56,579 nt of DNA from the IMG/VR virus record IMGVR_UViG_3300038724_000006, positions 1 to 56,579 of that record; one strand, given 5' to 3'. Position 1 is the stretch's first letter; the number at the start of each line of letters is the position of its first letter. Made by a program: the position numbers and the translations under genes. Below, in pieces: positions 38,782-56,579 of this stretch. The DNA is from a virus. The notes beneath the pieces are model-generated. The model was not told the origin of the DNA, ran no database searches, and was given only the letters and a program-made list of their open reading frames with translations.

Positions 38782-38786
38782 GGATG
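38782..38786. repeat. Right 5-bp target-site duplication (GGATG)
   Basis: GGATG follows TTACA at 38781 and matches 296-300. Removing 301-38786 would join ...GACATGGATG to TCCGCCGGAG. Confidence 0.85.
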
Positions 38787-38795
38787 TCCGCCGGA

Positions 38796-38913
38796 GCCGG
38801 TTACCGAAAAATCCAGTAAATATCGGGCGTTCGGCCCAGAAAAGCGCGAAGCAGGGGGATGGGCCGTCCGCCCGGGGGACGCAGTCCACCAAAGAGGGCA
38901 ACAGTTATCGGGG
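38796..38913. repeat. Tandem repeat unit, part B (first copy)
   Basis: From GCCGGTTACCGAAAAATCC to GGGCAACAG this segment matches 39341-39458 with a few substitutions. In the second unit part B directly follows part A. In the first unit 40 extra bp and the prophage separate them. The stretch 38914-39070, downstream to the next part A, is found only once in the window and holds no convincing gene. Confidence 0.85.
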
Positions 38914-39070
38914 CTCCGCCCCCGGCCCCATGCAAGGAGAGGTTTCTCCTTACGATCCTCTCTTCTCGGCGCATCCGGCTTCATCCAGCCAACGGCAGTC
39001 ATTATGCGACACGCAAAACAATCGGCCCCGGAGCGACCTTTTACAGTATCCATTTTTTTGTATCGCTCCG

Positions 39071-39340
39071 GGGCAAGGTTTTGCTCTAAAGGCCGCAGAA
39101 TAACTTTGTTGTCTGGCGCCGCACGCATGCCGATTAAAAGAAAATCCGAACAACCGCATTTCAAATCAGGCGGTGTTAGAGAGGCGAAATAGCCAAGCAG
39201 AAATTTGATCTAAAGCTAGTTTGACTACTCATTAAAGGACTGCCCCGCACGACTTCTCAAAAGAACGGTATCGCGGAGAGGTTATGCGCCTCTGGGGCCG
39301 CCGGGATTTACGTTAGATTTGCAGGTAACGTGAGGCAGGA
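39071..39340. repeat. Tandem repeat unit, part A (second copy)
   Basis: Second copy of the 1-269 sequence, identical over its first 81 bp and again over the last 62 or so. Together with part B it shows that the phage integrated into a pre-existing tandem array with a unit of about 584 bp. Possible reading frames across it have no protein-like features. Confidence 0.85.
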
Positions 39341-39458
39341 GCCGGTTACCGAAAAATCCAGTAAATATCGGAGGTTCGGCCCAGAAAAGCGCGAAGCAGG
39401 GGGGTGGGCCGTCCGCCCGGGGGACGCAGTCCGCCAAAGAGGGCAACAGTCATCGGGA
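39341..39458. repeat. Tandem repeat unit, part B (second copy, truncated)
   Basis: Matches 38796-38913, then diverges at AAAGTTAAAGCC. It ends the array. From here to pseB (39784) there is no gene; the interval holds the 13-bp minisatellite and the probable operon promoter. Confidence 0.85.
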
Positions 39459-39783: not shown

Positions 39784-40782
39784 ATGTTGGACGGTAAGAC
39801 TATTTTGGTCACGGGCGGCACCGGTTCGTTTGGGCATGCTTTTATTCCAATGACGTTAGAAAAATATAATCCTAAGAAGATCATCGTGTTTTCTCGTGAT
39901 GAGATGAAGCAATGGGAGATGGCGAAGCTTTTCGAGAATGATCATCGTGTTCGTTTTTTTATTGGTGATGTTCGCGACAAAGACCGCTTGTATCGCGCGC
40001 TAGATGGTGTGGATTATGTTGTTCATGCGGCGGCTACCAAGATTGTTCCTATTGCTGAATACAATCCCTTTGAATGCGTAAAAACGAATATTAATGGCGC
40101 GATGAATGTGATCGATGCCTGTATTGATCATGGCGTTAAGGGCTGTGTCGCTTTATCAACAGATAAGGCCAGTTCGCCGGTCAACTTGTATGGGGCTACG
40201 AAGCTGGCGTCGGATAAGTTGTTTGTTGCTGGTAATGCGTATTCTGGGGAGCATGGTACGCGCTTTTCTGTAGTTCGGTATGGCAATGTGATGGGGTCAC
40301 GCGGTTCGGTGATTCCGTTTTTTATGTCGATTAAAGATAAGGGTATTTTGCCGATCACGGATGATCGCATGACGCGGTTTATGATTTCGCTTGATGATGC
40401 GGTAGATCTTGTCTGGCACGCTTTCGATGATATGGTGGGTGGTGAGGTGTACGTTAAGAAGATCCCATCTATGAAGGTGACGGACCTTGCCCGTGTGGTT
40501 GCGCCAGAAGCTCGTCAGGATGTGGTGGGCATTCGTCCCGGTGAGAAGTTGCACGAGCAAATGATTGGCAGTGAAGACTCATATCACACCTACGAATACG
40601 ACGAGCATTTTAAGATTTTACCGGCGATCAATGGCTGGGATCACTGCCCAGAGCGTATAAAGAATGGTCGTCTGGTAGCAGAAGGGTTTACCTATTCGAG
40701 CGATAATAATACCGAATGGATGACGGATGCTGAGTTACAAGCGTGGATAGACATCAACCGGAATAAAATCGGAAATATTTAA
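39784..40782 (+). CDS. pseB: UDP-GlcNAc 4,6-dehydratase (inverting), PseB, 332 aa
   Basis: The NADP-binding GGTGSFG (11-17) and the catalytic set T126-D127-K128 and Y136-xxx-K140 (STDKASSPVNLYGATK) identify the inverting 4,6-dehydratase FlaA1/PseB. It makes the 4-keto-6-deoxy-AltNAc precursor of pseudaminic acid in the cytoplasm. AGGAG precedes the ATG. It is the first gene of the operon, and its stop overlaps the pseC start (TAATG). Confidence 0.95.
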   Translation: MLDGKTILVTGGTGSFGHAFIPMTLEKYNPKKIIVFSRDEMKQWEMAKLFENDHRVRFFIGDVRDKDRLYRALDGVDYVVHAAATKIVPIAEYNPFECVKTNINGAMNVIDACIDHGVKGCVALSTDKASSPVNLYGATKLASDKLFVAGNAYSGEHGTRFSVVRYGNVMGSRGSVIPFFMSIKDKGILPITDDRMTRFMISLDDAVDLVWHAFDDMVGGEVYVKKIPSMKVTDLARVVAPEARQDVVGIRPGEKLHEQMIGSEDSYHTYEYDEHFKILPAINGWDHCPERIKNGRLVAEGFTYSSDNNTEWMTDAELQAWIDINRNKIGNI

Positions 40783-41942
40783 TGATGATCCCTTATGGAA
40801 AACAGGACATTTCAGCTGAGGATATTGCCGCTGTCAGTGAGGTTCTGCGTTCTGATTTTTTAACTCAAGGGCCGGTTGTTCCAAGATTTGAAGAAGCCGT
40901 CGCTGAGGCTGCCAAGGCTAAGTACGGTGTGGCAGTAAACAGTGCGACCTCTGCGCTTCACATTGCTTGTTTAGCTTTAGGCGTGGGGCCGGGGGATCGT
41001 GTGTGGACAACACCGGTCACCTTTGTTGCTTCTGCCAATTGCGCTTTGTACTGCGGCGCTGACATCAGTTTCGTTGATATTGATCCTGATACCTACAATC
41101 TATGCCCGAAGGCGCTTGAGCAAAAGCTTATAGTCGCCAACGATGAAGGCACCCTCCCTAAGGTTATTATTCCCGTCCACTTGGCTGGGCAGTCGTGTGA
41201 TATGGAAGCGATTGCTGCCTTGGCCAGGCAATATGATATTCGTGTGATCGAAGATGCCTCTCACGCCATTGGGGCAGACTATGCCGGTGACGCGGTAGGA
41301 TCTTGCCGCTTTAGCGATATTACCGTGTTCAGTTTTCATCCGGTAAAAATCGTGACCACGGCTGAAGGGGGAGTGGCAGTTACGAATAATCTTCAATTGG
41401 CGGAACGTATGCAGCGTTTACGCTCACACGGTATTACGCGAGATCCTGAGTTGATGACAAAAGCACCGGACGGTGCTTGGTATTATCAGCAAATCGAATT
41501 GGGTTTTAATTATCGAATGACTGAGATGCAAGCGGCGTTAGGCTTAAGCCAAATGCAGCGCTTATCTTTGTTTGTTAAGCGTCGTCGAGGGTTGGCAAAA
41601 AGATACAACGAATTACTCTCTGATTTACCGGTCACTTTGCCTCAGCAATTAGCAGATTCGGCGTCTTCTTGGCATTTATTCATTGTGCGTTTCAACTTAA
41701 ATAAGATAGGCAAGACTCAGTCGCAGATATTTGATGAATGTCGTGCTGCGGGAATAGGTGTGAACTTACATTATATACCTGTTCATCTTCAGCCATATTA
41801 TTCTGATCTTGGGTTTAAGCAAGGAGACTACCCGGCGGCAGAAGCTTATTACGCGAATGCCATAAGCATTCCGTTGTTTCACTCCATGACGGATACACAA
41901 CAGGATGAAGTCGTTAGAGTGGTGAAGGAGATTGTTTTATGA
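40782..41942 (+). CDS. pseC: UDP-4-amino-4,6-dideoxy-AltNAc transaminase PseC, 386 aa
   Basis: DegT/DnrJ/EryC1 aminotransferase fold with the PLP lysine K189 (FSFHPVKIVTTAEGG) and the cofactor-binding Asp158 (VIEDASHA). It places the 4-amino group on the PseB product using glutamate. The sequence and its coupling to pseB make PseC the specific assignment. Length is normal. Confidence 0.95.
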   Translation: MMIPYGKQDISAEDIAAVSEVLRSDFLTQGPVVPRFEEAVAEAAKAKYGVAVNSATSALHIACLALGVGPGDRVWTTPVTFVASANCALYCGADISFVDIDPDTYNLCPKALEQKLIVANDEGTLPKVIIPVHLAGQSCDMEAIAALARQYDIRVIEDASHAIGADYAGDAVGSCRFSDITVFSFHPVKIVTTAEGGVAVTNNLQLAERMQRLRSHGITRDPELMTKAPDGAWYYQQIELGFNYRMTEMQAALGLSQMQRLSLFVKRRRGLAKRYNELLSDLPVTLPQQLADSASSWHLFIVRFNLNKIGKTQSQIFDECRAAGIGVNLHYIPVHLQPYYSDLGFKQGDYPAAEAYYANAISIPLFHSMTDTQQDEVVRVVKEIVL

Positions 41943-43818: not shown

Positions 43819-44529
43819 TTGAGTTTAACGATACCGAAAATCGACTCTGACAAGGCAATAGGTGAAGCATTGGCGTACAAAATTACCATCATTACGGATC
43901 AGTCGAGTTGGTTGTTGCCGTATATTCAGGATGTGAAAGCTCAGTGGCAGCTATTGGGTCATGAGGTTATTTTGTGTCATGCCAATATGGATCTGGCCGG
44001 TGGTGATTTCTGCTTTTGTTTAAGTTGCTCTGATTTAATCACTCAAGAAAAGCGTAAATTATATCGAAATACACTAGTGGTGCATGAAAGTGACTTGCCT
44101 CAAGGGCGTGGCTGGGCGCCGGTTGCTTGGCAAATATTAGCCGGACAAAAGACTATTCCTGTTGTGTTATTAGAAGCAGAAGACACTGTCGATAGCGGAG
44201 TGATCTACTTAAAAGACAGCATCACCTTAACAGGCGCAGAATTGAATTCTGAATGGCGTGAATTACAGGCTCAAGCAACTTTCCGGTTGTGTAATCAATG
44301 GTTGAGTGAGTACCCCAGTGTGTTAGATCTTGCCGTTCAACAAACGGGAGAGCCAACGTATTTTTCAAAGCGCTTACCTAAAGACAGTGAGCTAGATGTG
44401 AACATCAGCCTCGCTGAACAATTCGATTTACTCCGGGTAGTCGATAATGTCAGATATCCAGCATTTTTTAATCATGCCGGTAAGCGCTACAAATTAACGA
44501 TAGAGCGAGTGGAGGGAGATGATGACTGA
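43819..44529 (+). CDS. Formyltransferase-like protein 1, 236 aa
   Basis: The HESDLPQGRG motif (His89) and VDSGVIYLKD (Asp125) match the catalytic region of N10-formyl-THF formyltransferases, and the His-Asp spacing of 36 equals that in GART/Fmt. The usual Asn two residues before His is Val here. Formyltransferases in nonulosonate loci formylate sugar amino groups. The start is TTG (43819); another TTG at 43870 has AGGTGA upstream and may be the true start. It overlaps the second formyltransferase by 11 bp. Confidence 0.8.
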   Translation: MSLTIPKIDSDKAIGEALAYKITIITDQSSWLLPYIQDVKAQWQLLGHEVILCHANMDLAGGDFCFCLSCSDLITQEKRKLYRNTLVVHESDLPQGRGWAPVAWQILAGQKTIPVVLLEAEDTVDSGVIYLKDSITLTGAELNSEWRELQAQATFRLCNQWLSEYPSVLDLAVQQTGEPTYFSKRLPKDSELDVNISLAEQFDLLRVVDNVRYPAFFNHAGKRYKLTIERVEGDDD

Positions 44530-45259
44530 TGCCTGCATTGAAGCGCCTACTAAAATCGAACCTCTAACCTATATCGTCGCCAGTAATAAAGGTTGGCACT
44601 ACCCGGAGTTTGAGAAGCTAAAAGCTTCACAGCAAGGTGTGTGGTTATGGGCGTCGGATACTCAAGAGCTTGTCTCTGCATTAGCTCAGAATGCTTCTAT
44701 TCGTTATGTGTTTTTCTTGCACTGGAGTGAACGAGTCGCGGATAACGTTTGGAAAAACGTGCCTTGTGTTTGTTTCCATATGACCGACCTGCCTTACGGA
44801 CGCGGTGGTAGCCCGCTGCAAAATTTAATTGTCCGTGGACACTCAGACACTAAATTGACAGCCTTTCGGATGGTGGAAGCAATGGATGCTGGCCCTGTTT
44901 ATTTAAAGCGGGATTTGTCGTTGGCGGGTAGTGCCGAAGACATCTATGTGCGTGCCGGTCAACTTAGCGCCGCGATGATTCGTGACATTGTTGCTGCTCA
45001 GCCAGAACCGGTTGAGCAAGAAGGTGATGTTGTGCTTTTTAAGCGCCGAACACCGGTTGAAAGTGAGCTTCCTAACGACGTCTCTCGATGCGATATTTAT
45101 GATTTTATTCGTATGTTGGACGCGGATGGATACCCTCATGCGTTTGTTGATCACGGCAATATGAGAATACATTTTACTGACGCTGAATTAACGCCTGAGG
45201 GCGTGACGGCCAAGGTTTGCATTAGTGAGCAAGCAGGAATAATTAACAATGACATTTGA
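44519..45259 (+). CDS. Formyltransferase-like protein 2, 246 aa
   Basis: HMTDLPYGRGGSPLQNLI (His87) and MDAGPVYLK (Asp123) give the formyltransferase fold with the same 36-residue spacing. Asn before His is replaced by Cys (VCFH). The RRTPVESELP segment near residue 180 is typical of sugar-formyltransferase-like proteins beside neuB/pseI genes. A second such gene directly after the first suggests paralogues with different amino-group targets or a heteromer. Confidence 0.82.
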   Translation: MMTDACIEAPTKIEPLTYIVASNKGWHYPEFEKLKASQQGVWLWASDTQELVSALAQNASIRYVFFLHWSERVADNVWKNVPCVCFHMTDLPYGRGGSPLQNLIVRGHSDTKLTAFRMVEAMDAGPVYLKRDLSLAGSAEDIYVRAGQLSAAMIRDIVAAQPEPVEQEGDVVLFKRRTPVESELPNDVSRCDIYDFIRMLDADGYPHAFVDHGNMRIHFTDAELTPEGVTAKVCISEQAGIINNDI

Positions 45260-46295
45260 GATAAATGGACGCCGCATAGGCCCAGATTGCCCGCCTTATA
45301 TTATTGCTGAATTATCCGCGAACCATAACGGTGACATAGCGCAGGCATTAAAAACCATTGATGCTGCAGCCAAAGCGGGCGCTTGTGCGATTAAGATTCA
45401 AACCTATACCGCCGATACCATGACCATTGATTGCGACTTACCGGATTTTAAAATTGAAGGTGGGTTATGGGATGGCTACAAGCTGTATGATTTATACACG
45501 TGGGCACAAACCCCTTTTGAGTGGCACCAAGCTATTTTCGCTCACGCTAAAAAGGTAGGCATTACGCTCTTTTCAACCCCGTTTGATGAAAGCGCCGTTG
45601 AATTATTAGAGTCGTTAAATACTCCGGCGTATAAAGTCGCGTCATTTGAACTGACGGATTTACCGTTAATTCGTTGTATCGCGGCGACTGGGAAACCCAT
45701 GATTATGTCCACCGGGATGGCGACGTTAGACGAGATACACGAAGCCGTTGAGGCTGCGCGCTCTGCCGGATGCAACGACTTAGTATTGTTACATTGCATT
45801 AGTAGTTATCCCGCGCCTATGGATCAGGCGAATCTAAAACAAATGGATATTATCCGTCAGACTTTTGGTGTGACGGTGGGGTTATCTGATCACACTTTAG
45901 GCACAACGGCGTCGGTGGCAGCAGTGGCATTAGGCGCGTGCGTGATTGAAAAACATTTTATTTTGGATCGTACTGAGAAGGGCCCAGACAGTGAGTTTTC
46001 GATTGAGCCTGCTGAATTATCTGGTTTGGTAAACGATGCAAACGATGCGTGGTCTGCTTTAGGTAATGGTGAGTTTTCACGCCAGCCTGCGGAGTCTTCT
46101 AATACCATTTTTAGACGTTCCTTGTATTTTATTAAAGACTTACCGGCAGGCCATAGAATTGGCCCTGAAGACATTCGGCGTATTCGTCCGGGTTATGGTC
46201 TAGCACCAAAATATTACGATGAACTATTGGGGCGTCGTCTGAAGCAGCCTGTGGTTCGAGGCACAGCCACGAGCTGGGAGATACTAGATGACTAA
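45249..46295 (+). CDS. pseI: Pseudaminic acid synthase PseI, 348 aa
   Basis: NeuB-family TIM barrel (YIIAELSANHNGDIAQAL, then VGLSDHTLGTTASVAAVALG) with a C-terminal SAF/antifreeze-like domain (about 285-348). It condenses the six-carbon sugar with phosphoenolpyruvate. The pse context makes PseI more likely than the legionaminate enzyme. It overlaps both neighbours. Confidence 0.95.
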   Translation: MTFEINGRRIGPDCPPYIIAELSANHNGDIAQALKTIDAAAKAGACAIKIQTYTADTMTIDCDLPDFKIEGGLWDGYKLYDLYTWAQTPFEWHQAIFAHAKKVGITLFSTPFDESAVELLESLNTPAYKVASFELTDLPLIRCIAATGKPMIMSTGMATLDEIHEAVEAARSAGCNDLVLLHCISSYPAPMDQANLKQMDIIRQTFGVTVGLSDHTLGTTASVAAVALGACVIEKHFILDRTEKGPDSEFSIEPAELSGLVNDANDAWSALGNGEFSRQPAESSNTIFRRSLYFIKDLPAGHRIGPEDIRRIRPGYGLAPKYYDELLGRRLKQPVVRGTATSWEILDD

Positions 46296-46956
46296 TACAG
46301 TACTGGTGATTGCCGCACATCCCGATGATGAAGTGTTGGGGTGTGGTGGCGCTATTGCGCGTCATACGGCATTAGGTGATCAAGTGCATGTGTTGTTTAT
46401 GGCAGATGGTGAAACGTCGCGTACCTCACTTGTTAAAGATTTAGAAGAAAAACGACGTCATGCAGCGCAGGGTGCGTTGGATGTTCTTGGCGTTGGCGAG
46501 CGTATTTTCCTTGATTGGCCCGATAACCGGTTAGATACGATTCCCATGCTTGATTTAGTACAAAGCATCGAGCCGGTCATCATGAGGCTTCGCCCAGATA
46601 TTATTTATACACATTTTGAAGGTGATCTGAATGTTGATCATCAGAAAACTGCTCGCGCCGTATTTACGGCGTGCCGGCCTCAGCCTGAATTTTCAGTGAC
46701 AAAAATTATATGTTTTGAGGTGTTGTCCAGTACCGAGTGGAATCCGACTCAACACTTTACCCCTAATTATTGGGTGGATGTATCGGATTATTTATTAGTC
46801 AAAGAAGAAGCATTATCCTTTTACGATACAGAAATGCGTGAGTATCCTCACTCTCGCTCTTATCAAAACATGCGGCAATTGGCCGGTGTACGAGGCGCAA
46901 CTATTGGTGTTGAGTACGCAGAGGCCTTTATGATTGTACGAATGATCGAGCGTTAA
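46288..46956 (+). CDS. PIG-L/LmbE-type deacetylase, 222 aa
   Basis: AHPDDE (10-15) is the zinc-binding motif of PIG-L deacetylases, and THFEGDLNVDHQ carries the second His pair. The enzyme removes N-acetyl groups from sugars. Its place in the pse operon suggests it unmasks an amino group for another acyl group, for example formyl. The substrate is inferred. Confidence 0.9.
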   Translation: MTNTVLVIAAHPDDEVLGCGGAIARHTALGDQVHVLFMADGETSRTSLVKDLEEKRRHAAQGALDVLGVGERIFLDWPDNRLDTIPMLDLVQSIEPVIMRLRPDIIYTHFEGDLNVDHQKTARAVFTACRPQPEFSVTKIICFEVLSSTEWNPTQHFTPNYWVDVSDYLLVKEEALSFYDTEMREYPHSRSYQNMRQLAGVRGATIGVEYAEAFMIVRMIER

Positions 46957-46958
46957 TC

Positions 46959-47972
46959 ATGCAACGTGTCTTGATAGTGGGTTGTGGAAGAATTGCCGGT
47001 GGCTTTGATGAACACCGTGATCCAACACTTTTTGCACTAACGCATGCTGGTGCTTATAGCAAACGTGATGATGTTAAGGTGGTGGCGTGTGTTGATCCTA
47101 ACCTTGAGTTGGTGAAAGCCTTTGCTCAGCGCTGGAATATCCCTGCGATGTATTCTTCATTGGCAGAAATACCGCCCACAGAACAGTTCGATATTATCAG
47201 TGTGTGTGTGCCGACGGCTTTTCATGAGGAAACAATTTGTCAGGTGCTTGAGCTTTCTCCGCGTGCTTTATTTATTGAGAAACCTATTTCGATGTCAGCG
47301 GCCAACAGTACTGAGTTAATCTCACGCTGCAAAGATAAAGGTATTCCAGTATTGGTTAATTACAGCCGTCGTTGGGATACGCAAGTGAATACCTTCTTTG
47401 ATGAGCTTCGTTCAAGAAAATACGGCGAATTACGAAGTGTGGTGGCTATTTATAATAAGGGTATTCGTAATAATGGGTCTCATATTATCGATTTGTTATT
47501 CAACCTGTTTGGAACGCTTCAACCTATTTGGTCTGAGGTACGGCTTGCTAGTTCAGCTCATGAGACCACAGCTCATGAGACCACAACTCATGAGACAGTC
47601 CTAGATCCAGATATTAATGCAATTTTACGTGGGCCAAATCAGGAGAGCATACATCTAGTTTGCACTGATGCCACTGACTTCTCACAATTTGAATTACAGA
47701 TTTTAACCAGTGATGCTGAACTGCGAATGCTTGATGGCGGCGCACGCTGGTCGGTACGTAAAAAACAAGCCAGTCCGGAATTTTCAGGTTATTCCCGCTT
47801 AGGTGAGGAAGAGTATGTTTCGGGTGGTTACTTGCCCGTGATGGAAGCAGCCATTAAGCAGTTAACCTCAGATGTACACGCGAATGTGCTGTCGTATGGA
47901 TCGGCAGAGAGTGCATTACAGGTTGAAGAACTATGCGAACAATTGATTAGGCAGGCATATGAAAAACATTGA
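46959..47972 (+). CDS. Gfo/Idh/MocA-family oxidoreductase, 337 aa
   Basis: N-terminal Rossmann fold (VLIVGCGRIAGGFD) and the EKP motif (107-109) define the family. It should oxidise or reduce a sugar with NAD(P). An in-frame 15-bp repeat (47556-47597) encodes AHETT units near residues 200-213, an insertion in a surface loop. It is followed with a 14-bp overlap by a DegT aminotransferase, so the pair may install an amino group. Confidence 0.9.
   Translation: MQRVLIVGCGRIAGGFDEHRDPTLFALTHAGAYSKRDDVKVVACVDPNLELVKAFAQRWNIPAMYSSLAEIPPTEQFDIISVCVPTAFHEETICQVLELSPRALFIEKPISMSAANSTELISRCKDKGIPVLVNYSRRWDTQVNTFFDELRSRKYGELRSVVAIYNKGIRNNGSHIIDLLFNLFGTLQPIWSEVRLASSAHETTAHETTTHETVLDPDINAILRGPNQESIHLVCTDATDFSQFELQILTSDAELRMLDGGARWSVRKKQASPEFSGYSRLGEEEYVSGGYLPVMEAAIKQLTSDVHANVLSYGSAESALQVEELCEQLIRQAYEKH
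47556..47597. repeat. 15-bp in-frame tandem repeat in the oxidoreductase gene
   Basis: GCTCATGAGACCACA occurs twice exactly, followed by a partial third copy (ACTCATGAGAC). Copy changes keep the frame and alter the length of an AHETT loop. Confidence 0.85.
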
Positions 47973-49260
47973 TGAGTTACGTGCTCAAACATTGGCTGAA
48001 GCTGGCGGGCAGCCTGTTATTCAAACACCGTTTCAGCGTTACAACAGTTTAGGCAAAGAAGAACAAGTCGCCGTACAGCAGGTAATGGAAAGCGGCGTGC
48101 TGTCGCAGTTTCTTGGATGTTGGCATGAAGATTTTTACGGCGGTTCAAAAGTTCGTGAGTTTGAAGCGGACTGCTGTGAATTCTTTGGTGTAAAACATGC
48201 GATTACCGTAAATTCTTGGACGTCTGGTTTAATTGCTGCTGTCGGCGCGTTAGATATTGAGCCGGGTGACGAGGTGATTGTTAGCCCGTGGACTATGTGT
48301 GCAAGCGCTACCGCTATATTGCAGTGGAATGCAATTCCTGTGTTCGCCGATATTGATCCGTTAACCTTTAATATCGACCCCGCGTCAGTACGCGCGAATA
48401 TTACTGAAAAAACCAAAGCCATTATGGCGGTCGATATTTTTGGACAGTCGGCGGATATGGATGCATTACGAGCCATCGCTGATGAATTTGATCTTAAAAT
48501 TATTTCAGATACGGCTCAGGCGCCGGGGGCTTTTTATAAAGGCAAACCCGCCAGTACGCTCGCAGATATTGGCGGCTACAGCTTAAATTATCACAAGCAT
48601 ATTCATACTGGTGAAGGTGGTGTGATTGTGACCAATGATGATGCGCTCGCTGAGCGTATGCGTTTAATTCGTAATCACGCAGAAGCGGTATTGCCGGATC
48701 GTGAAGCGATGCCCATTAACAATATGCTGGGCTATAACTTTCGCTTGGGTGAAATTGAATGTGCCATTGGTATTGAGCAGCTTAAAAAGTTACCGGCGCT
48801 GGTGGCGTCTCGGCAGCATTTGGCTGAACGCTTAGCGGATGGGCTTCGTGGTCTTGTGGGGTTAACGGTGCCTACGGTGGCAGAAGGGAATACGCATGTG
48901 TATTACATGTTTCCTTTATTGGTGGATACAACGCTTACAGGTTGCAGTAAACATGAATTGGCCAGCGCACTAAAATCCGAAGGTTTGGAGCTTGCGACTG
49001 TGTATCAGAATCTTCATTTACTGCCGATGTACCAGCAGAAAATTGCGTACGGTCATCATGGTTTTCCATGGACGGCTGAGTTTGCTCGTCAGTCGGTCAG
49101 TTATGAGAAGGGTATTTGTCCGGTGGCTGAAGAGATGAACGACACCAGCTATTTAGGTTTTGGTATGTGTACTTTTAGCCTAAGTGATGATGACGTTGAT
49201 TTGATTATCGAGGCCTTTCATAAAGTTTGGGCCCATAAAGTGGCCAGTCGCTCGGCGTAA
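47959..49260 (+). CDS. DegT/DnrJ/EryC1-type aminotransferase, 433 aa
   Basis: The fold-I PLP lysine is K213 (NYHKHIHTGEGG) and Asp184 (ISDTAQAPG) binds the cofactor ring. A 40-residue N-terminal extension (LAEAGGQPVIQTPF) precedes the core. The YHKHIHTGEGG form is typical of aminotransferases from perosamine-like or nonulosonate side pathways. It likely transaminates the product of the adjacent oxidoreductase. Confidence 0.9.
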   Translation: MKNIDELRAQTLAEAGGQPVIQTPFQRYNSLGKEEQVAVQQVMESGVLSQFLGCWHEDFYGGSKVREFEADCCEFFGVKHAITVNSWTSGLIAAVGALDIEPGDEVIVSPWTMCASATAILQWNAIPVFADIDPLTFNIDPASVRANITEKTKAIMAVDIFGQSADMDALRAIADEFDLKIISDTAQAPGAFYKGKPASTLADIGGYSLNYHKHIHTGEGGVIVTNDDALAERMRLIRNHAEAVLPDREAMPINNMLGYNFRLGEIECAIGIEQLKKLPALVASRQHLAERLADGLRGLVGLTVPTVAEGNTHVYYMFPLLVDTTLTGCSKHELASALKSEGLELATVYQNLHLLPMYQQKIAYGHHGFPWTAEFARQSVSYEKGICPVAEEMNDTSYLGFGMCTFSLSDDDVDLIIEAFHKVWAHKVASRSA

Positions 49261-49291
49261 CTTCACTCAGTATAATGTGGGGAGAATTTGT

Positions 49292-49864
49292 ATGGCACTA
49301 ACGACGATTAATAAGCTTTCATTACGAGAGCAATTTGAAGCGAATCTTATTGTGTCTAAAGGAGATATGCTTATTCGCACTTTCCAAGAGAAAGACATTA
49401 CGCCACGTTATATCTCTTGGTTGAATAATCCCGAGGTTGTCCGCTTTAGCAATCAACGTTTTATTACCCACACTGAATCAAGCTGTCAGAGTTTTTATCG
49501 TTCAATGGCATCATCGCCATCAAGCTTTCTTGCCATTGAGCATGCCGAGTATGGGCATGTTGGTACGCTGACTGTGCACTTTAATGATCATCATGGTACC
49601 GCTGATATGGGAATTTTGGTCGGTGAACCTTCCATCTGGGGAAAAGGGGTTGGCATTACCGCATGGATGCTTGCCATGACTACAGCATTGAAGATTCCAA
49701 GAATGCGTAAGGTGACTGCAGGTACATTAGCGTGTAATACAGGGATGCTATCTATTATGCGCAAGTCTGGGATGGTGATGGATGGCATTCGTGTGAATCA
49801 GGAGCTAGTGGAAGGCAGGCCCTACGATATGCATTATTACGCGTGTTTTTCTGATGATTCCTGA
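49292..49864 (+). CDS. GNAT acetyltransferase (RimJ/RimL type), 190 aa
   Basis: The acetyl-CoA-binding region is GVGITAWMLAMTTALK, and ISWLNNPEVVRFS near the N-terminus is the usual substrate loop. The ATG at 49292 has GGGGAG at good spacing; a GTG at 49277 is the alternative. It is the only GNAT in the window, so it may supply the PseH step or acetylate another position. Confidence 0.88.
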   Translation: MALTTINKLSLREQFEANLIVSKGDMLIRTFQEKDITPRYISWLNNPEVVRFSNQRFITHTESSCQSFYRSMASSPSSFLAIEHAEYGHVGTLTVHFNDHHGTADMGILVGEPSIWGKGVGITAWMLAMTTALKIPRMRKVTAGTLACNTGMLSIMRKSGMVMDGIRVNQELVEGRPYDMHYYACFSDDS

Positions 49865-50813
49865 AGATTATTTCTCTAAAGGCAATGTCTCTAAAGGCAA
49901 TGTTTCTGAAGGTCATGCTCCTAGAGGTCATGCTCCTAAAGGAAAAGTCGCTGTCATTGCTCATGATGCAGGCGCAGCGAATCAAATCATTCATTGGTTT
50001 ATTCAAGGTGATTTATCTCCAGAACTCGCCTATTTTTCCTTGTCTGGCCCTGCCTTAGTTTTGGCTAGAAAAGCGTTGGCTGAAAAGTCTGCATTCATTT
50101 TCCAAAATCATTCGATCACTGATGCCATCGCTCAATCTGATTGGGTATTGGCAGGCACGGGGTGGGCTAGCGAGTATGAAAAAGAAGGTATGGCGGAGGG
50201 GATTCGTCAGCATAAAATAACCATTGCCGTATTTGATCACTGGGTGAATTATGAACCCAGGCTGAAATATCAGGATCGCATTTTAGATATTGATCAAATT
50301 TGGGTAACCGATGTGTATGCTCAGGTATTGGCAGTAGATGTGTTTCCTGAGATTGTTACTCATGTAATGCCAGGGCGGTATTTAACCTATGAATCTAGCC
50401 GAGTACAGGGTGATGGGGTTAAAGGGAACATTCTTTTTTTAATGGAGCCGGTTAGAGTATCTTGGCAGGGGGTTGCTCATGGTGAGTTCCAAGCATTCCA
50501 GTTTTTTTTAGATCACCTAGCACTAATCTCAACGCACGCTCCATATAATATAATCATCCGTCCTCATCCGTCTGACCCTGAGGGTAAGTATCAAGCGTTA
50601 CTGCAAACAAGTGATGACTTTACGATCACAGTGTCGTCCGATACGTCCTTATATGAAGCACTCTCTACTGCTGAGGTTGTTGTCGGGCTAAATAGTTATG
50701 CCATGGTGGTGGCATTAGCGGCAGGACGAAAAGTATGTAGTGTCTTGCCTCCGACGGCCCCGGCGTGTGTTTTACCACAGCCGGGTATCATTGAGTTGCG
50801 CACACTGATTTAG
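49854..50813 (+). CDS. GT-B-like protein of the glycosylation locus, 319 aa
   Basis: The core resembles the nucleotide-sugar binding half of GT-B or epimerase folds: VAVIAHDAGAANQI at the start and IIIRPHPSDPEGKYQ with VVVGLNSYAMVVALAAGRKV later. It may transfer or handle a sugar. Residues 8-32 come from five 15-bp tandem repeats and probably form a flexible N-terminal extension. It overlaps the GNAT gene by 11 bp. Specific function unknown. Confidence 0.72.
   Translation: MIPEDYFSKGNVSKGNVSEGHAPRGHAPKGKVAVIAHDAGAANQIIHWFIQGDLSPELAYFSLSGPALVLARKALAEKSAFIFQNHSITDAIAQSDWVLAGTGWASEYEKEGMAEGIRQHKITIAVFDHWVNYEPRLKYQDRILDIDQIWVTDVYAQVLAVDVFPEIVTHVMPGRYLTYESSRVQGDGVKGNILFLMEPVRVSWQGVAHGEFQAFQFFLDHLALISTHAPYNIIIRPHPSDPEGKYQALLQTSDDFTITVSSDTSLYEALSTAEVVVGLNSYAMVVALAAGRKVCSVLPPTAPACVLPQPGIIELRTLI
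49875..49949. repeat. 15-bp degenerate tandem repeat, five copies, in the GT-B-like gene
   Basis: Five in-frame units encode SKGNV, SKGNV, SEGHA, PRGHA and PKGKV. The first two differ by one base; the others have drifted. The repeat keeps the reading frame and lengthens the N-terminus only. Confidence 0.88.
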
Positions 50814-50822
50814 GCGAGTTAG

Positions 50823-52874
50823 CTACTCTGCGTAGAGATGCTCGTTCGAAACGATATCTTCACGAATCCAAGGGTCAGAGTTGTCGGGGTAATTTTTACT
50901 GGTGATACTGTGAAAGTGTTCAGGTAGGTCTTTCAAAAACCCTTCAAAGTTACTTTTCCACTCATTGATAAACTCAGTACGTTTGTTTGCATCATTAATG
51001 GATAAGGTGTGTGCGGCGGCGATGTTTAGGTAGTGCCAGACAGACCCCCTGAGAAAGAATGCTAGGTTGCCATATTTTGGGAATATTCCGGTCATTAAAT
51101 GCATATTAAGGTTGTGACATGTTTTGAATATTGATTCAGGGTCAGTGTGTTCAAAATGTTTTAAACATGTCAGCAGTGATGTCGCCATTTCTTTCAATGA
51201 CTTATCGAGAAAATTGATTCTTGCGCGTAATTCTTTTTGGTTAAATGGTGTACCAATAAGCGTGTCAATAAACTCTGAGATATTTTTATCTGGCTTCTCT
51301 GCAAAGTAGCTATGGATATCATCTGGCGTCCAGTATTCGGTATCGCAAATTTTTACCCCTTCAGAACAGGTAATGTTACGGCGATTCGCTTGTAAGCTAC
51401 GAATTTTCATTGATTGCTCAGCACTCATCCGCGAGGTGTTGTACATCGGTATGGTGTACATTTTTTCGCCGTGTACTGATTCGGTTTCTACCAAGCTTTC
51501 AAAGTTTCGCTTAATGGCGGATTGAATAGCGTCACTCATTTTGTCTGAGAAATAGATACTGGTTTTTGAGTGATGTTGAGTCCTTTCTGGAAAACCAAAG
51601 TCCATACCGTATAAAAAGATGTCTTGAATGCCAAAGTGCGTAGCGATAGCTATCCCGGTATTTGTACAAGTGGGTGTAGCACGGTGAACAATGTTCTCTT
51701 GTGTGGTGAACATTGTGGCTAGCGCGGTTGAGTCTTTCAAAAAATACGTTCTTCGTTCAAACAAAGAGAAGACATTCGGCGGAACTTGCAGTGCTGCAAT
51801 GAGTAGGGTGTTCTTGAAGAAGTCAGGGTTGATAATGTTTGATAGATGTTCATGAGTGAGCATGTGCGATTCTATTTCTACATGAATATCTGGAACCAAT
51901 CCACACGCCAGCAAGCTATGAACAGATGTGCCACAAGAAATTAACAGTACTTTATCGCGGTAGCGGGTGATTTCATTGACGCGCATATCAAACGAAGGCC
52001 CTGCCCCAACTATGATCGTAGGTAGGCTGGTATCTATGTCACTGAACTCCAGTGGGGAGATACCCGCCCCAATATTATGTAGGGCGTTATTGAGTTGATT
52101 AATCTCATCATCGTAGTAGCCCCACTGGTTGAGAAAGAAGTGCATATCTTCGCGGATACTATCAACCAGAGGTTGGTATGTCGCTGAATTGATGTGGTTG
52201 TAAAAAAGTGAGCAAAGCGGGTAACTAGGCCCGTAATTAATGAGTAGGTTCCATAATGCAGGGGCTGAAACTTCGGTGGTGGCTATTCCACCAGATGCGA
52301 TGAGCAAATCAATTTTTTGACCTTTCTTCTGAACTTCTTGGAATATGGATTCCCAGTCGGTGATGTATAAGCTAGCAAAGAAATATTCTGGGTCTGGCTC
52401 AAAAATAACAACATTAAGGATTTGAGTCTCTTTCACCATCTTATCTATGTGAATTCCTACCCCACAGCCAAAAAAGACCATTAACGGGTAAAAATCTGGA
52501 ATCGTGTAGTTAGCGGATAGATCAGATTCGCTTGGTATTTTTTGCGTTAATTCATGCATACGTTTCGAAAAGAAACGGTGGAAACCAAGTTCGCCAGGTA
52601 CTGGTGGGGTAATGGTCGCAATACTCGACCCTGGCGAAAAATGTTGGCGATACTTTTCTACTTCCTTTTCTGCAAAGGCATGAGCATCTCCTTCGTAAAG
52701 GCTAACACGGTCATCCCAGAGATCGACTTTACCGGTATCGCCATCAATATTAAGCGTCAAATGATTAAACGATTCCGTTAGGGCGGTTTGATATAGCGGC
52801 TGGTGATGCTTTTCGAAAAACGCCAGATTTTTGTCTTTCAGTGCCATTGCACCAGTAGCTCGGGGGTGTGACAT
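50823..52874 (-). CDS. maf: Motility accessory factor (Maf), flagellin glycosyltransferase, DUF115, 683 aa
   Basis: The central DUF115/MptE-like domain is clear: PTIIVGAGPSFDMRVNEI, LISCGTSVHSLLACGLVPDI and a YGMDFGFPE motif. Maf proteins transfer nonulosonic acids, including pseudaminic acid, onto Ser/Thr of flagellin before export. Helical N- and C-terminal regions are usual. It is convergent with the pse operon (9-bp gap, no terminator visible) and divergent from the flagellin gene. AAGGAG precedes the ATG. Confidence 0.92.
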   Translation of the reverse strand: MSHPRATGAMALKDKNLAFFEKHHQPLYQTALTESFNHLTLNIDGDTGKVDLWDDRVSLYEGDAHAFAEKEVEKYRQHFSPGSSIATITPPVPGELGFHRFFSKRMHELTQKIPSESDLSANYTIPDFYPLMVFFGCGVGIHIDKMVKETQILNVVIFEPDPEYFFASLYITDWESIFQEVQKKGQKIDLLIASGGIATTEVSAPALWNLLINYGPSYPLCSLFYNHINSATYQPLVDSIREDMHFFLNQWGYYDDEINQLNNALHNIGAGISPLEFSDIDTSLPTIIVGAGPSFDMRVNEITRYRDKVLLISCGTSVHSLLACGLVPDIHVEIESHMLTHEHLSNIINPDFFKNTLLIAALQVPPNVFSLFERRTYFLKDSTALATMFTTQENIVHRATPTCTNTGIAIATHFGIQDIFLYGMDFGFPERTQHHSKTSIYFSDKMSDAIQSAIKRNFESLVETESVHGEKMYTIPMYNTSRMSAEQSMKIRSLQANRRNITCSEGVKICDTEYWTPDDIHSYFAEKPDKNISEFIDTLIGTPFNQKELRARINFLDKSLKEMATSLLTCLKHFEHTDPESIFKTCHNLNMHLMTGIFPKYGNLAFFLRGSVWHYLNIAAAHTLSINDANKRTEFINEWKSNFEGFLKDLPEHFHSITSKNYPDNSDPWIREDIVSNEHLYAE

Positions 52875-53315: not shown

Positions 53316-56300
53316 ATGCCTCAAATTATTAATACCAACATTGCCTCGCTGAATGCTCAGCGTAACCTCGACAAATCGCAGTCTTCTAACCAGCAAGCTC
53401 TGCAACGTCTGTCTTCAGGTCTTCGTATTAACAGTGCGAAAGATGATGCGGCCGGTTTGGCGATTTCTACCCGTTTCACTTCTCAGATTAAAGGTCTAGA
53501 TGTTGCCGTGCGAAACGCCGGTGATGGTATCGCTCTTGCGCAGACTGCTGAAGGTGCACTGGGTTCTATTAACGAGTCACTGCAACGTATTCGTGAGCTA
53601 GCGGTTCAGTCTGCGAACGCCACGAACTCTGACGTTGACCGTGACGCACTTCAGTCGGAAGTGGATCAGCTGGTGGCTGAGATCTCTCGTACTGCTGATG
53701 AGACTGACTTCAACGGTCGTAAGTTGTTGGACGGTTCTTTCTCTGCGACTTTCCAGGTAGGCGCGAACGCTGGCCAGACGGTAGATATTTCTATCGGTGA
53801 GCTAACGGCTGACAAACTGGGTTCATCTTCTCAGTCTGGTTTAAGTGCACGTGGTACGGATCAATCACTGGGTAACGGTGACTTAACCATTAACGGCGTT
53901 GCTGTTCAGGCGTCTCGTGCTGAAGACGATACGTCTTCTACTTCTAATAACTCTGCATCGGCTATCTCTAAAGTTGCAGCGATTAACCGCGTTTCTGATG
54001 ATACTGGCGTGTCTGCGTTTGTTAACGACAACGTTGCGGCGGGTTCAACTCAGTCTCCAGAAGCAGGTACGGGTACCTTTAAGCTGAACGGTGTTGAGAT
54101 TTCTTTCTCTACCACTACAGACTCTGCGCAAACGCGTGCCGCGATTTCTCAAGCAATTAACGCGGTTGCTGAACAGACGGGTGTTAGCGCTGTAGATACT
54201 GAATCTGGTTCTACCGGTGTGAACTTGGTCGCTGAAGATGGTCGTAATATTCAGATTTCTGATGTGACTTTCTCAGGTACAGACTTTGCCGCAGCGACTG
54301 GTCTGGCTGAAGCGGGTACCTATGAAGGTGGTTACACTCTGATTGCTGATGGCGACCAGAAAACCATCGATATTTCTGGTGGTAACGGTACTGGCCGTGG
54401 TGATCTTGCAAACGCAGGTTTGACGGCTGGCAGCTACGACCGTGCTGAAGCGGTGTCTGTTTCCACAAAAGTGTCTGACTCTACTCAGTCAACAACTGTT
54501 GGCGGCGGTTCACTGGCGAATACTCTAGCCCGTGCTGATTCTGGTGGTACCTTCATTTCAGCAACAGCCGGTACGGCAACCAGTGTTGTAACCTCGACTG
54601 CAACCACCGCTCAGATTACTGATAGTGGTGCGTCAGTGACTATCACTCAGGGCACGACTGCAGTTACCTACTCGAATGCGGGTAACCAAGATATTTCTGC
54701 CTATGCAGATGCCGCAGAAACGGCAGCAACTACTGCGGGTATCGCTGTTAACTTCTTCGAGCAAGGTTCTCTGGATTTATCTTCATTGGATGTGGGTGAC
54801 TCGTTCACAATTGGTGCTGTAACCGTCAATGTTGCTGGTACGTCAGCCATCTTACGCGCAGAAAATGTTGTTGATCAGCTGAATGCGGGTGACTTCTCGG
54901 CAGACTTAGGTGCAACTGGCTTCTTGAATGCTGAGCTTCAAGGTACGGCTGGTGATGTTAATATTACCTTCCGTAATGAAACCAACTCACCGCTGACTGC
55001 TTCTCGCTCTACAGCCGGTGCTGTCACTCTGGGTGGTACAACCATCTCAACCACAGCGACGGGTACCATTATTACTGGTGAGCTAGGCTTCGCATCAACG
55101 TCAGCAACTGGTGAAGCGGTTGATGTTGTACTAACTGATGCAGCCGATGACCTTTTGGCAGCAAATGGGACTGTCACTGGTAGCTCGTCTTCGGGTGATG
55201 TACTGACCACGACCAATGAAACCAACATCAGTGTTTCAATCGGCGATACAGACGCATCTCCTGCAGCGCCATTGGCAGCGGGTTCTACGGTGGCTGAGTT
55301 GGCTCAAGCGGTTGACGGTGTTGCTGGTGTGAAAGCGTATGAAGAGATCACTCTGACGATTGATTCTTCAAACCTTGAGTCTGGTGAACAGCTACGTTTA
55401 TCTTCTGGCGCGACCAATATTGACGTAACGGCTACTCCAGACAGTGCGGGTAACTTTACCCTGCAAGGTCTCGCAGACGATATTAACGGAACGGATTTCT
55501 CAACAGCCAATATGGATGTATCGGCTGCCTACGATGCAGATTCTGGTGAAATCACCATGACTATCCGTAACTACAGTGCAAATACCGTGGGTATTGAATC
55601 TGAAGGCGCAAGCGGTGGCGGTATTACTGTTGCTGAAGGCGGCGGTACTACTGTTGGTGAGAACACACTCAACCTATCTGGTGAGCTGAAGTACTTCTCT
55701 GAAGATGGCCAAGACGTTAACGTGACCTTGTCTGATCCAACGACGGGTGGTGAGTTATTCACCGGTAAGAGCTCATCTTCAGACTACACAGGTGTGAACG
55801 GTCTTGAAGATGGTGACTTGCTGATCAACGGTGTAACCATTGGTGCGGCGGATGTGAATGCGGATAAGGCATCAGCAACTGTATCTTCTGATGGTGCTAA
55901 GATCCTGTCTTCTGAGAAATCTCAGTCGGCGATTGCGATTGCTGCAGCCATCAACAAGGTATCTGATGAGACTGGTGTAACAGCCAACGTTAATGCTACC
56001 GAGGTGGTGGGCGGCGATGGTACGAACATCGACCTTACTCAGTTTGAGGAAGGCGACCAAGCGGGTATTTATATCAACGGTGTTGAAGTAGGTACAGTGA
56101 CACTTCAGGCTGACGGTGGCGGTACGCTGGATTCAGACCGGGCACGTGCTGATGCCTTGAACTTGATCAATCAGAACGCTGGTAAGACGGGTGTGACTGC
56201 AACAGACAATGGTGTTTCTCTAACACTGAGTGCTGCGGATGGTCGTAACGTCTCTATCGCGATTGATGATAAGTCAGGTTCTAGCGCTTCGATTGGTGCA

Positions 56301-56579
56301 GTGATGGGCTTGGATGCCGAGGTTGCTGGTATCGGTGAGCAAACTTTCGGTGATGCGTCAGTGGCTAGCGCTGCAACTTCTCCTGAAGCGGCTGCTTACG
56401 AAACCACTTACGGTTCTGTTAGCTTGTCTTCTGCGAAGGAGTTCACTCTGGAAGGTGGAGCAAACGGTAACTCTGAGCTAAGTGCAATGGGTCTGGCGAC
56501 AGGCACATACGGCGGTGGTGAAGATGGTCAGTTCTTATCTGATATCGACATCTCAACCTTCGAAGGTGCTACGGCAGCC
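53316..56579 (+). CDS. fliC: Giant flagellin (3' end beyond the window), at least 1,088 aa
   Basis: The N-terminal D0/D1 domain (about residues 1-170) is classic flagellin: MPQIINTNIASLNAQRNLD and LRINSAKDDAAGLAIS. The frame stays open to the window edge, 1,088 codons, without reaching the C-terminal D1/D0 domain, so the protein is more than twice the usual size. The outer part contains repeated flagellin-IN-type motifs (TINGVAV about 190, KLNGVEIS about 252, INGVTIG about 834, INGVEVG about 919), each followed by a helix like SAISKVAAINRVSDDTGVSA. AGGAG lies 8 bp before the ATG. It is rich in Ser/Thr, the likely glycan sites. Confidence 0.95.
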   Translation, partial: MPQIINTNIASLNAQRNLDKSQSSNQQALQRLSSGLRINSAKDDAAGLAISTRFTSQIKGLDVAVRNAGDGIALAQTAEGALGSINESLQRIRELAVQSANATNSDVDRDALQSEVDQLVAEISRTADETDFNGRKLLDGSFSATFQVGANAGQTVDISIGELTADKLGSSSQSGLSARGTDQSLGNGDLTINGVAVQASRAEDDTSSTSNNSASAISKVAAINRVSDDTGVSAFVNDNVAAGSTQSPEAGTGTFKLNGVEISFSTTTDSAQTRAAISQAINAVAEQTGVSAVDTESGSTGVNLVAEDGRNIQISDVTFSGTDFAAATGLAEAGTYEGGYTLIADGDQKTIDISGGNGTGRGDLANAGLTAGSYDRAEAVSVSTKVSDSTQSTTVGGGSLANTLARADSGGTFISATAGTATSVVTSTATTAQITDSGASVTITQGTTAVTYSNAGNQDISAYADAAETAATTAGIAVNFFEQGSLDLSSLDVGDSFTIGAVTVNVAGTSAILRAENVVDQLNAGDFSADLGATGFLNAELQGTAGDVNITFRNETNSPLTASRSTAGAVTLGGTTISTTATGTIITGELGFASTSATGEAVDVVLTDAADDLLAANGTVTGSSSSGDVLTTTNETNISVSIGDTDASPAAPLAAGSTVAELAQAVDGVAGVKAYEEITLTIDSSNLESGEQLRLSSGATNIDVTATPDSAGNFTLQGLADDINGTDFSTANMDVSAAYDADSGEITMTIRNYSANTVGIESEGASGGGITVAEGGGTTVGENTLNLSGELKYFSEDGQDVNVTLSDPTTGGELFTGKSSSSDYTGVNGLEDGDLLINGVTIGAADVNADKASATVSSDGAKILSSEKSQSAIAIAAAINKVSDETGVTANVNATEVVGGDGTNIDLTQFEEGDQAGIYINGVEVGTVTLQADGGGTLDSDRARADALNLINQNAGKTGVTATDNGVSLTLSAADGRNVSIAIDDKSGSSASIGAVMGLDAEVAGIGEQTFGDASVASAATSPEAAAYETTYGSVSLSSAKEFTLEGGANGNSELSAMGLATGTYGGGEDGQFLSDIDISTFEGATAA

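Follow-up and report, generated by a model that had tools for sequence, protein, structure and literature searches.

The pseudaminic acid (Pse) operon described here probably makes a form of the sugar in which formyl groups take the place of acetyl groups, and the gene content points most readily to 5,7-di-N-formyl-pseudaminic acid (Pse5Fo7Fo). The operon lies in a window of 56,579 nucleotides, which is the whole of a virus-collection record (IMG/VR IMGVR_UViG_3300038724_000006), although the operon itself is bacterial chromosome located 3' of a Mu-like prophage. Two formyltransferase-like genes, FT1 and FT2, stand between pseG and pseI, as the initial annotation had reported, and both were recovered as open reading frames with formyltransferase profiles and fold. 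With somewhat less confidence, we favour the wider reading that Pse has an interchangeable acyl code, spread over bacteria from many phyla and consisting of an N7 slot (PseH, FT1 or others) and an N5 swap (a PIG-L deacetylase with FT2 or with another cassette), and that formyl is used at both places here, by formyltransferases without the usual Asn. The genes concerned are the following.

39784-40782, + strand: pseB, UDP-GlcNAc 4,6-dehydratase (inverting); TIGR03589, 538.5 bits against a cut-off of 407.75
40782-41942, + strand: pseC, aminotransferase; TIGR03588, 564.3 bits
41939-42646, + strand: pseF, CMP-Pse synthetase; TIGR03584, 327.8 bits
42643-43809, + strand: pseG, UDP-sugar hydrolase; TIGR03590, 293.4 bits
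43819-44529, + strand: FT1 (236 aa), predicted to formylate N4 (later N7) of the PseC product; PF00551, slot and fusion evidence, AF2 fold
44519-45259, + strand: FT2 (246 aa), predicted to formylate N5 after deacetylation; PF21553, 1ZGH family, PIG-L gene beside it
45249-46295, + strand: pseI, pseudaminic acid synthase; TIGR03586, 497.5 bits
46288-46956, + strand: PIG-L/LmbE-type N-deacetylase, whose predicted role is to strip off the acetyl group destined for N5; PF02585, 105.8 against 28.2 bits
46959-47972, + strand: Gfo/Idh/MocA oxidoreductase, the first gene of a further module that Pse does not need; PF01408
47959-49260, + strand: second DegT/DnrJ/EryC1 aminotransferase; PF01041, 318 bits, under the PseC cut-off
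49277-49864, + strand: GNAT N-acyltransferase belonging to the further module and distinct from PseH; PF13302, no NCBIfam match
49854-50813, + strand: 319-aa protein travelling with the module, family unassigned; no Pfam match
50823-52874, - strand: Maf-type flagellin glycosyltransferase; PF20157, 107.5 bits, and PF01973
53316-56579, + strand: very long flagellin gene, recognised by an open frame whose N-terminus looks flagellin-like in the sequence; 1088 or more codons, running off the record

PseB, PseC, PseF, PseG and PseI all score above their NCBIfam equivalog cut-offs, which places the operon in the pseudaminic acid pathway. The genes are tightly packed, with overlaps of 11 nt between FT1 and FT2, 11 nt between FT2 and pseI, and 8 nt between pseI and the next gene. 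The absence of PseH from the operon, also pointed out in the initial annotation, was confirmed: no gene scanned in the window matched the PseH profile (TIGR03585) above its cut-off, and neither did any in the nearest relative, the Oceanobacter MAG NORP38, where the best score was 30.6 against a cut-off of 93.1 bits.

To compare gene content, 81 FT2-bearing loci (80 genome contigs and a slice of the window) were annotated with profiles made from the window and locus proteins, and about 125 other clusters were compared for the partners of FT1 and FT2. Loci, given below by their L numbers, were drawn by separate searches for FT2, FT1 or PseH, the presence of PIG-L not being a selection criterion, and scanning genomes order-wide with the FT1 profile supplied FT1 clusters beyond the FT2 set.

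FT1 very likely formylates N7 in place of PseH, judging from its gene neighbourhoods. The slot between PseG and FT2 or PseI in the 81 FT2 loci holds FT1 only in 17 (one of them the window slice), a PseH-type GNAT only in 46, both in three and neither in 15; several of the last end early or carry other acyl-transfer families in the slot. Classical sugar formyltransferases with an N_formyltrans_C domain occupy it in L043, L066 and L080, and a WbqC-like protein in L068. Across 100 full-context clusters, any PseH-like match was found in 8 of 37 with FT1 and in 59 of 63 without it (Fisher p 8e-14, a test that ignores relatedness), and in tree-independent pairs FT1 and PseH were opposite in 5.8 of 5.9 informative pairs (median p 0.03). 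Parsimony on the FT2 tree gave at least 10 switches between FT1 and GNAT, a count that errors in this short tree, built by a quick method, could have inflated. Both families also occur as C-terminal fusions to PseG, FT1 in four loci (L036, L055, L077, L078) and GNAT in 28, and the closest relatives, from Thalassolituus (L003-L006), have the same operon with a PseG~GNAT fusion in place of PseG and FT1. Finally, operons of the form pseB-C-F-G-FT1-pseI exist with neither FT2 nor PIG-L nearby (for example L104, L106, L138, L139 and L146-L149), and together with the slot exchange they form the arrangement expected of a PseH substitute.

The exchange is not strict. About six clusters (L041, L058, L069, L134, L135 and weak cases) have FT1 and GNAT domains both in or near the slot, which weakens its exclusivity; these clusters may make mixtures or use one of the domains elsewhere. 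Among them, L041 has a PIG-L~FT1-like fusion beside PseG~GNAT, and L134 (9495-11771) and L135 (8142-10313) encode triple PseG~GNAT~FT1 fusions in a single reading frame, with the two acyl-transfer domains adjacent. In L143 and L144, no pse genes were recognised up to about 9 kb from the FT1-family genes (284 and 246 bits), which may belong to another aminosugar context.

The initial annotation had let both formyltransferases stand in for PseH, a proposal that fits only FT1, which occupies the PseH slot; FT2 does a different job and is linked to the PIG-L gene at 46288-46956, which that annotation had not mentioned. FT2 co-occurs with either FT1 or PseH and never replaces them, and in L026 PseH and FT2 share one reading frame, as expected of steps that are complementary rather than alternative. 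Among cultured carriers, Stutzerimonas stutzeri 28a22 (L008) combines FT2 and PIG-L with FT1, and Marinobacter sediminum R65 (L010) combines them with PseH. Wherever the flank was sufficient, a PIG-L gene was found near FT2: 79 of the 81 loci were flagged, and the contigs of the other two are too short. Near PseI, PIG-L was found in none of 18 full-context PseH-only clusters and in none of 14 FT1 clusters without FT2, four PIG-L-bearing exceptions being counted apart. For full-context clusters the association of FT2 with PIG-L has a Fisher p of 4e-22, which ignores relatedness; in this test L058 was entered by hand as carrying both, the script having centred on its other PseI. Of the 3.9 tree-independent pairs, 3.7 agree (p 0.125), too few pairs for significance alone. 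Searches of plasmid and phage collections returned no close FT2 relatives and no annotated context of use.

The four exceptions, with PIG-L and FT1 and without FT2 (L100, L101, L140, L142), have other genes between FT1 and PIG-L, which in three of them include putative acylation genes. L100, besides its PIG-L gene, has genes for an ACP, an AMP-ligase, a ketoreductase and a GNAT, the latter set lying between FT1 and PseI. ATP-grasp (amino-acid-ligase-like) genes were observed in L101 (9888-10823) and L140 (12274-13563), possibly for N5 aminoacylation. The nitrogen N5, which is the hexose C2 nitrogen, arrives already acetylated from UDP-GlcNAc, and any other group on N5 therefore needs a deacetylase. 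PIG-L accompanies FT2 or a different acyl cassette and is missing from clusters with PseH or FT1 alone, which fits this requirement, and on this genomic pattern PIG-L and FT2 probably act at N5. The metal and acid residues of PIG-L (H11, D13, D14, H118) are invariant, and its relatives in the PDB include BshB1 and diacetylchitobiose deacetylase.

Both formyltransferases matched ArnA and Fmt models. FT1 scored 28.3 bits with the Pfam domain Formyl_trans_N (PF00551; cut-off 26.1), and FT2 scored 64.6 bits with Formyl_trans_C_2 (PF21553; cut-off 27), a 1ZGH-type domain family. AF2 models, built from alignments of locus-derived homologues, had mean pLDDT values of 89.2 (FT1) and 93.4 (FT2), with 1ZGH as the best PDB match of each; next in rank were ArnA and further formyltransferases for sugars or Met-tRNA, including HypX. 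A recent tandem duplication was rejected as the origin of the pair, the two proteins being 26% identical to each other, against about 38-59% within each family across distant relatives.

The initial annotation had also described a His-Asp pair at a spacing of 36 without the usual Asn, and the residues are as described: H89 and D125 in FT1 and H87 and D123 in FT2, all four invariant, with Val (V87, FT1) or Cys (C85, FT2) two positions before the His, where the sugar formyltransferase ArnA has Asn in the alignment. Among homologues this position is Cys in all 81 FT2 sequences and Val, Ile or Leu in 43 of the 44 FT1 sequences with the motif (Thr once), so that the missing Asn is a family-wide feature rather than local damage, and the suggestion of a specialised subfamily is upheld. 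The Asp 36 residues after the His is found in 81/81 FT2 and 42/44 FT1 homologues, the likely reason for the two FT1 exceptions being their alignment with a one-residue insertion. 1ZGH has Val at the -2 position. The NLH motif is retained by the classical formyltransferases that occupy the PseH slot in L043 and L066, and it is also found in the L080 sequence; the loss of Asn thus belongs to the FT1 and FT2 subfamilies and not to the reaction step. Degeneration of the two enzymes was considered and rejected, as the motif residues are invariant.

Several alternatives have to be weighed against a di-formylated product. The absence of the catalytic Asn from all 81 FT2 and all FT1 homologues, and the invariant Cys in its place in FT2, could mean that these proteins are no longer formyltransferases and instead move a different group or are active only in a complex. 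We regard this as quite improbable, since the His, the Asp, the fold and the C-terminal domain are kept, both families are widespread and strongly conserved, FT1 occurs without FT2 and hence in no obligate complex, and classical NLH sugar formyltransferases occupy the same slot in L043 and L066. Nor is it at all probable that the GNAT encoded at 49277 is a relocated PseH making ordinary Pse5Ac7Ac, with the formyltransferases serving something else: the gene does belong to the GNAT superfamily and lies in the same operon, but its product has no NCBIfam PseH match and reaches only 22 bits on a PseH profile built here, where most genuine PseH proteins score about 145-220. Orthologues of this GNAT coexist with PseG~GNAT fusions in L003-L006, and from this coexistence and the low score we conclude that it is not the missing PseH. 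The module to which it belongs (46959-50813) has the same gene order in Thalassolituus (L003-L006) and in a Bdellovibrionales MAG (L067), and could place an acylated amine elsewhere on the sugar (at C8, for example) or else produce another amino sugar.

This module and the nearby Maf gene also leave some room for a product with one formyl group, in which FT1 makes Pse5Ac7Fo and the targets of FT2 and PIG-L are the module's product or a different sugar in the flagellar glycan. Such a division of labour is unlikely, as the FT2/PIG-L pair flanks PseI, is present in most clusters without the extra module, and stands beside synthases that matched the pseudaminic acid synthase model in all 24 cases tested. 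Alternatively, FT2 and PIG-L might act at N7 like FT1 and PseH, the first acyl being a temporary protecting group that is swapped later, for PIG-L must remove some acetyl, which in clusters with PseH could be the one on N7. In clusters with both FT1 and FT2, however, a formyl would then come off for a formyl to go back, PseH or FT1 is never replaced by FT2, and L100 pairs FT1 and PIG-L with a different acyl cassette, matching a sugar with an N7 formyl and an N5 hydroxybutyryl group; we hold action at a single nitrogen to be improbable.

An N-formyl pseudaminic acid, proposed in the initial annotation as a possible product, is thus supported as probable by the slot exchange of FT1 and the coupling of FT2 to PIG-L. 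Computation gave the identities of the genes, the exchange in the slot, the coupling of FT2 with PIG-L, the fold and the conserved His and Asp residues; beyond these, we infer the substrates, positions, order of steps and product of a pathway, the nitrogen assigned to each enzyme being argued from pathway logic and from L100. PseB and PseC would yield UDP-4-amino-4,6-dideoxy-L-AltNAc, and FT1 would formylate its free 4-amine, the future N7, replacing PseH. PseG would take off UDP and PseI would add pyruvate, while PIG-L, before or after PseI, would strip the acetyl from the future N5 (hexose C2), onto which FT2 would put a formyl from N10-formyl-THF. PseF would then activate the sugar, and Maf would transfer it to flagellin. 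The predicted Pse5Fo7Fo residue has a mass of 288.10 Da, compared with 316.13 Da for the di-acetyl form, before any change by the Gfo/Idh-DegT2-GNAT module.

The precedent for the FT1 step is PseJ (PDB 6CI2/6CI4/6CI5/6EDK), the formyltransferase of the Anoxybacillus Pse pathway. PseJ is reported, in work by Reimer and colleagues (Reimer et al. 2018), to formylate the PseC product in place of PseH. FT1 shares with it the gene position that replaces pseH in the pse operon and a similar proposed role, and the FT1 profile matches PseJ distantly (E 2e-6), but 1ZGH and ArnA score far better against FT1, which therefore looks like a separate recruitment. PseJ has no bearing on FT2 or PIG-L, and we see the N5 exchange module as the new part. 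The closest solved relative of FT2 is 1ZGH, a structural-genomics entry from Clostridium thermocellum named 'methionyl-tRNA formyltransferase' by similarity (39% identity, TM 0.83/0.90, phmmer 7e-51); it is also the best structural match of FT1 and likewise lacks Asn at the catalytic place, and the comparison suggests that the family is misnamed as a tRNA enzyme. The sugar N-formyltransferases of the ArnA transformylase, VioF and FdtF type, which act on aminodeoxy sugars, have in common with FT1 and FT2 the fold, the His and Asp 36 apart and an HxSLLP/HxTDLP-type loop; they differ in the Asn two before the His, where FT1 has Val, Ile or Leu and FT2 Cys, and in some NulO clusters (L043, L066, L080) the PseH slot is filled by this classical type.

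Two known sugars resemble parts of the predicted product. The pilin sugar of P. aeruginosa 1244 is 5-N-hydroxybutyryl-7-N-formyl-Pse (PMC6222762), with formyl at N7 and a non-acetyl group at N5, hydroxybutyryl there and formyl as predicted here. The gene set of L100 (FT1, PIG-L and ACP, ligase, ketoreductase and GNAT genes) is that expected for such a sugar, which argues that PIG-L goes with a non-acetyl N5 and FT1 with a 7-formyl. Halorubrum sp. PV6 has 5-N-formyl-legionaminic acid, whose gene cluster includes a predicted formyltransferase (PMC6137143); this is likewise a nonulosonic acid with an N5 formyl, but it is legionaminic and archaeal. In the open-licence literature searched (N-formyl Pse biosynthesis, PIG-L in nonulosonate clusters, PseJ, di-formyl Pse), we found no description of the FT2/PIG-L module, of 5,7-di-N-formyl-pseudaminic acid, or of an enzyme for the exchange of N-acetyl for N-formyl at N5 of a nonulosonic acid. 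If the proposed reading is right, it supplies the enzymes for this de-N-acetylation and N-formylation, the acyl groups on the pseudaminic acid of flagella or of the cell surface can be predicted from gene content, two formyltransferase families whose present names refer to Met-tRNA or ArnA can be given new ones, and a simple mass readout is available, with residues of 316.13 (di-acetyl), 302.11 (one formyl) or 288.10 Da (di-formyl).

The host of the operon is a marine bacterium, and the operon is a flagellin-glycosylation operon. The Maf gene and the very long flagellin gene downstream make flagellin the likely acceptor; the flagellin (53316-56579) is rich in Ser and Thr and unusual in its length. 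The Mu-like prophage spans positions 301-38781, looks complete, has TGTA...TACA ends and encodes a Mu transposase, a Mu portal protein and Gp48. It is flanked by a 5-bp target duplication, GGATG, at 296-300 and 38782-38786, and its flanks are colinear with a contig of the Oceanobacter MAG NORP38 (L002). The operon as phage cargo was rejected, because it lies outside this clean-ended prophage and is colinear with the bacterial MAG contig. Related intergenic DNA is present on either side of the prophage, at 1-301 and at about 38908-39344, both matching the same stretch of L002 at 83-87%, and the sequence suggests that the region upstream of pseB carries a repeat. The prophage is inserted about 1 kb upstream of pseB, where it may influence how the flagellin-sugar operon is expressed.
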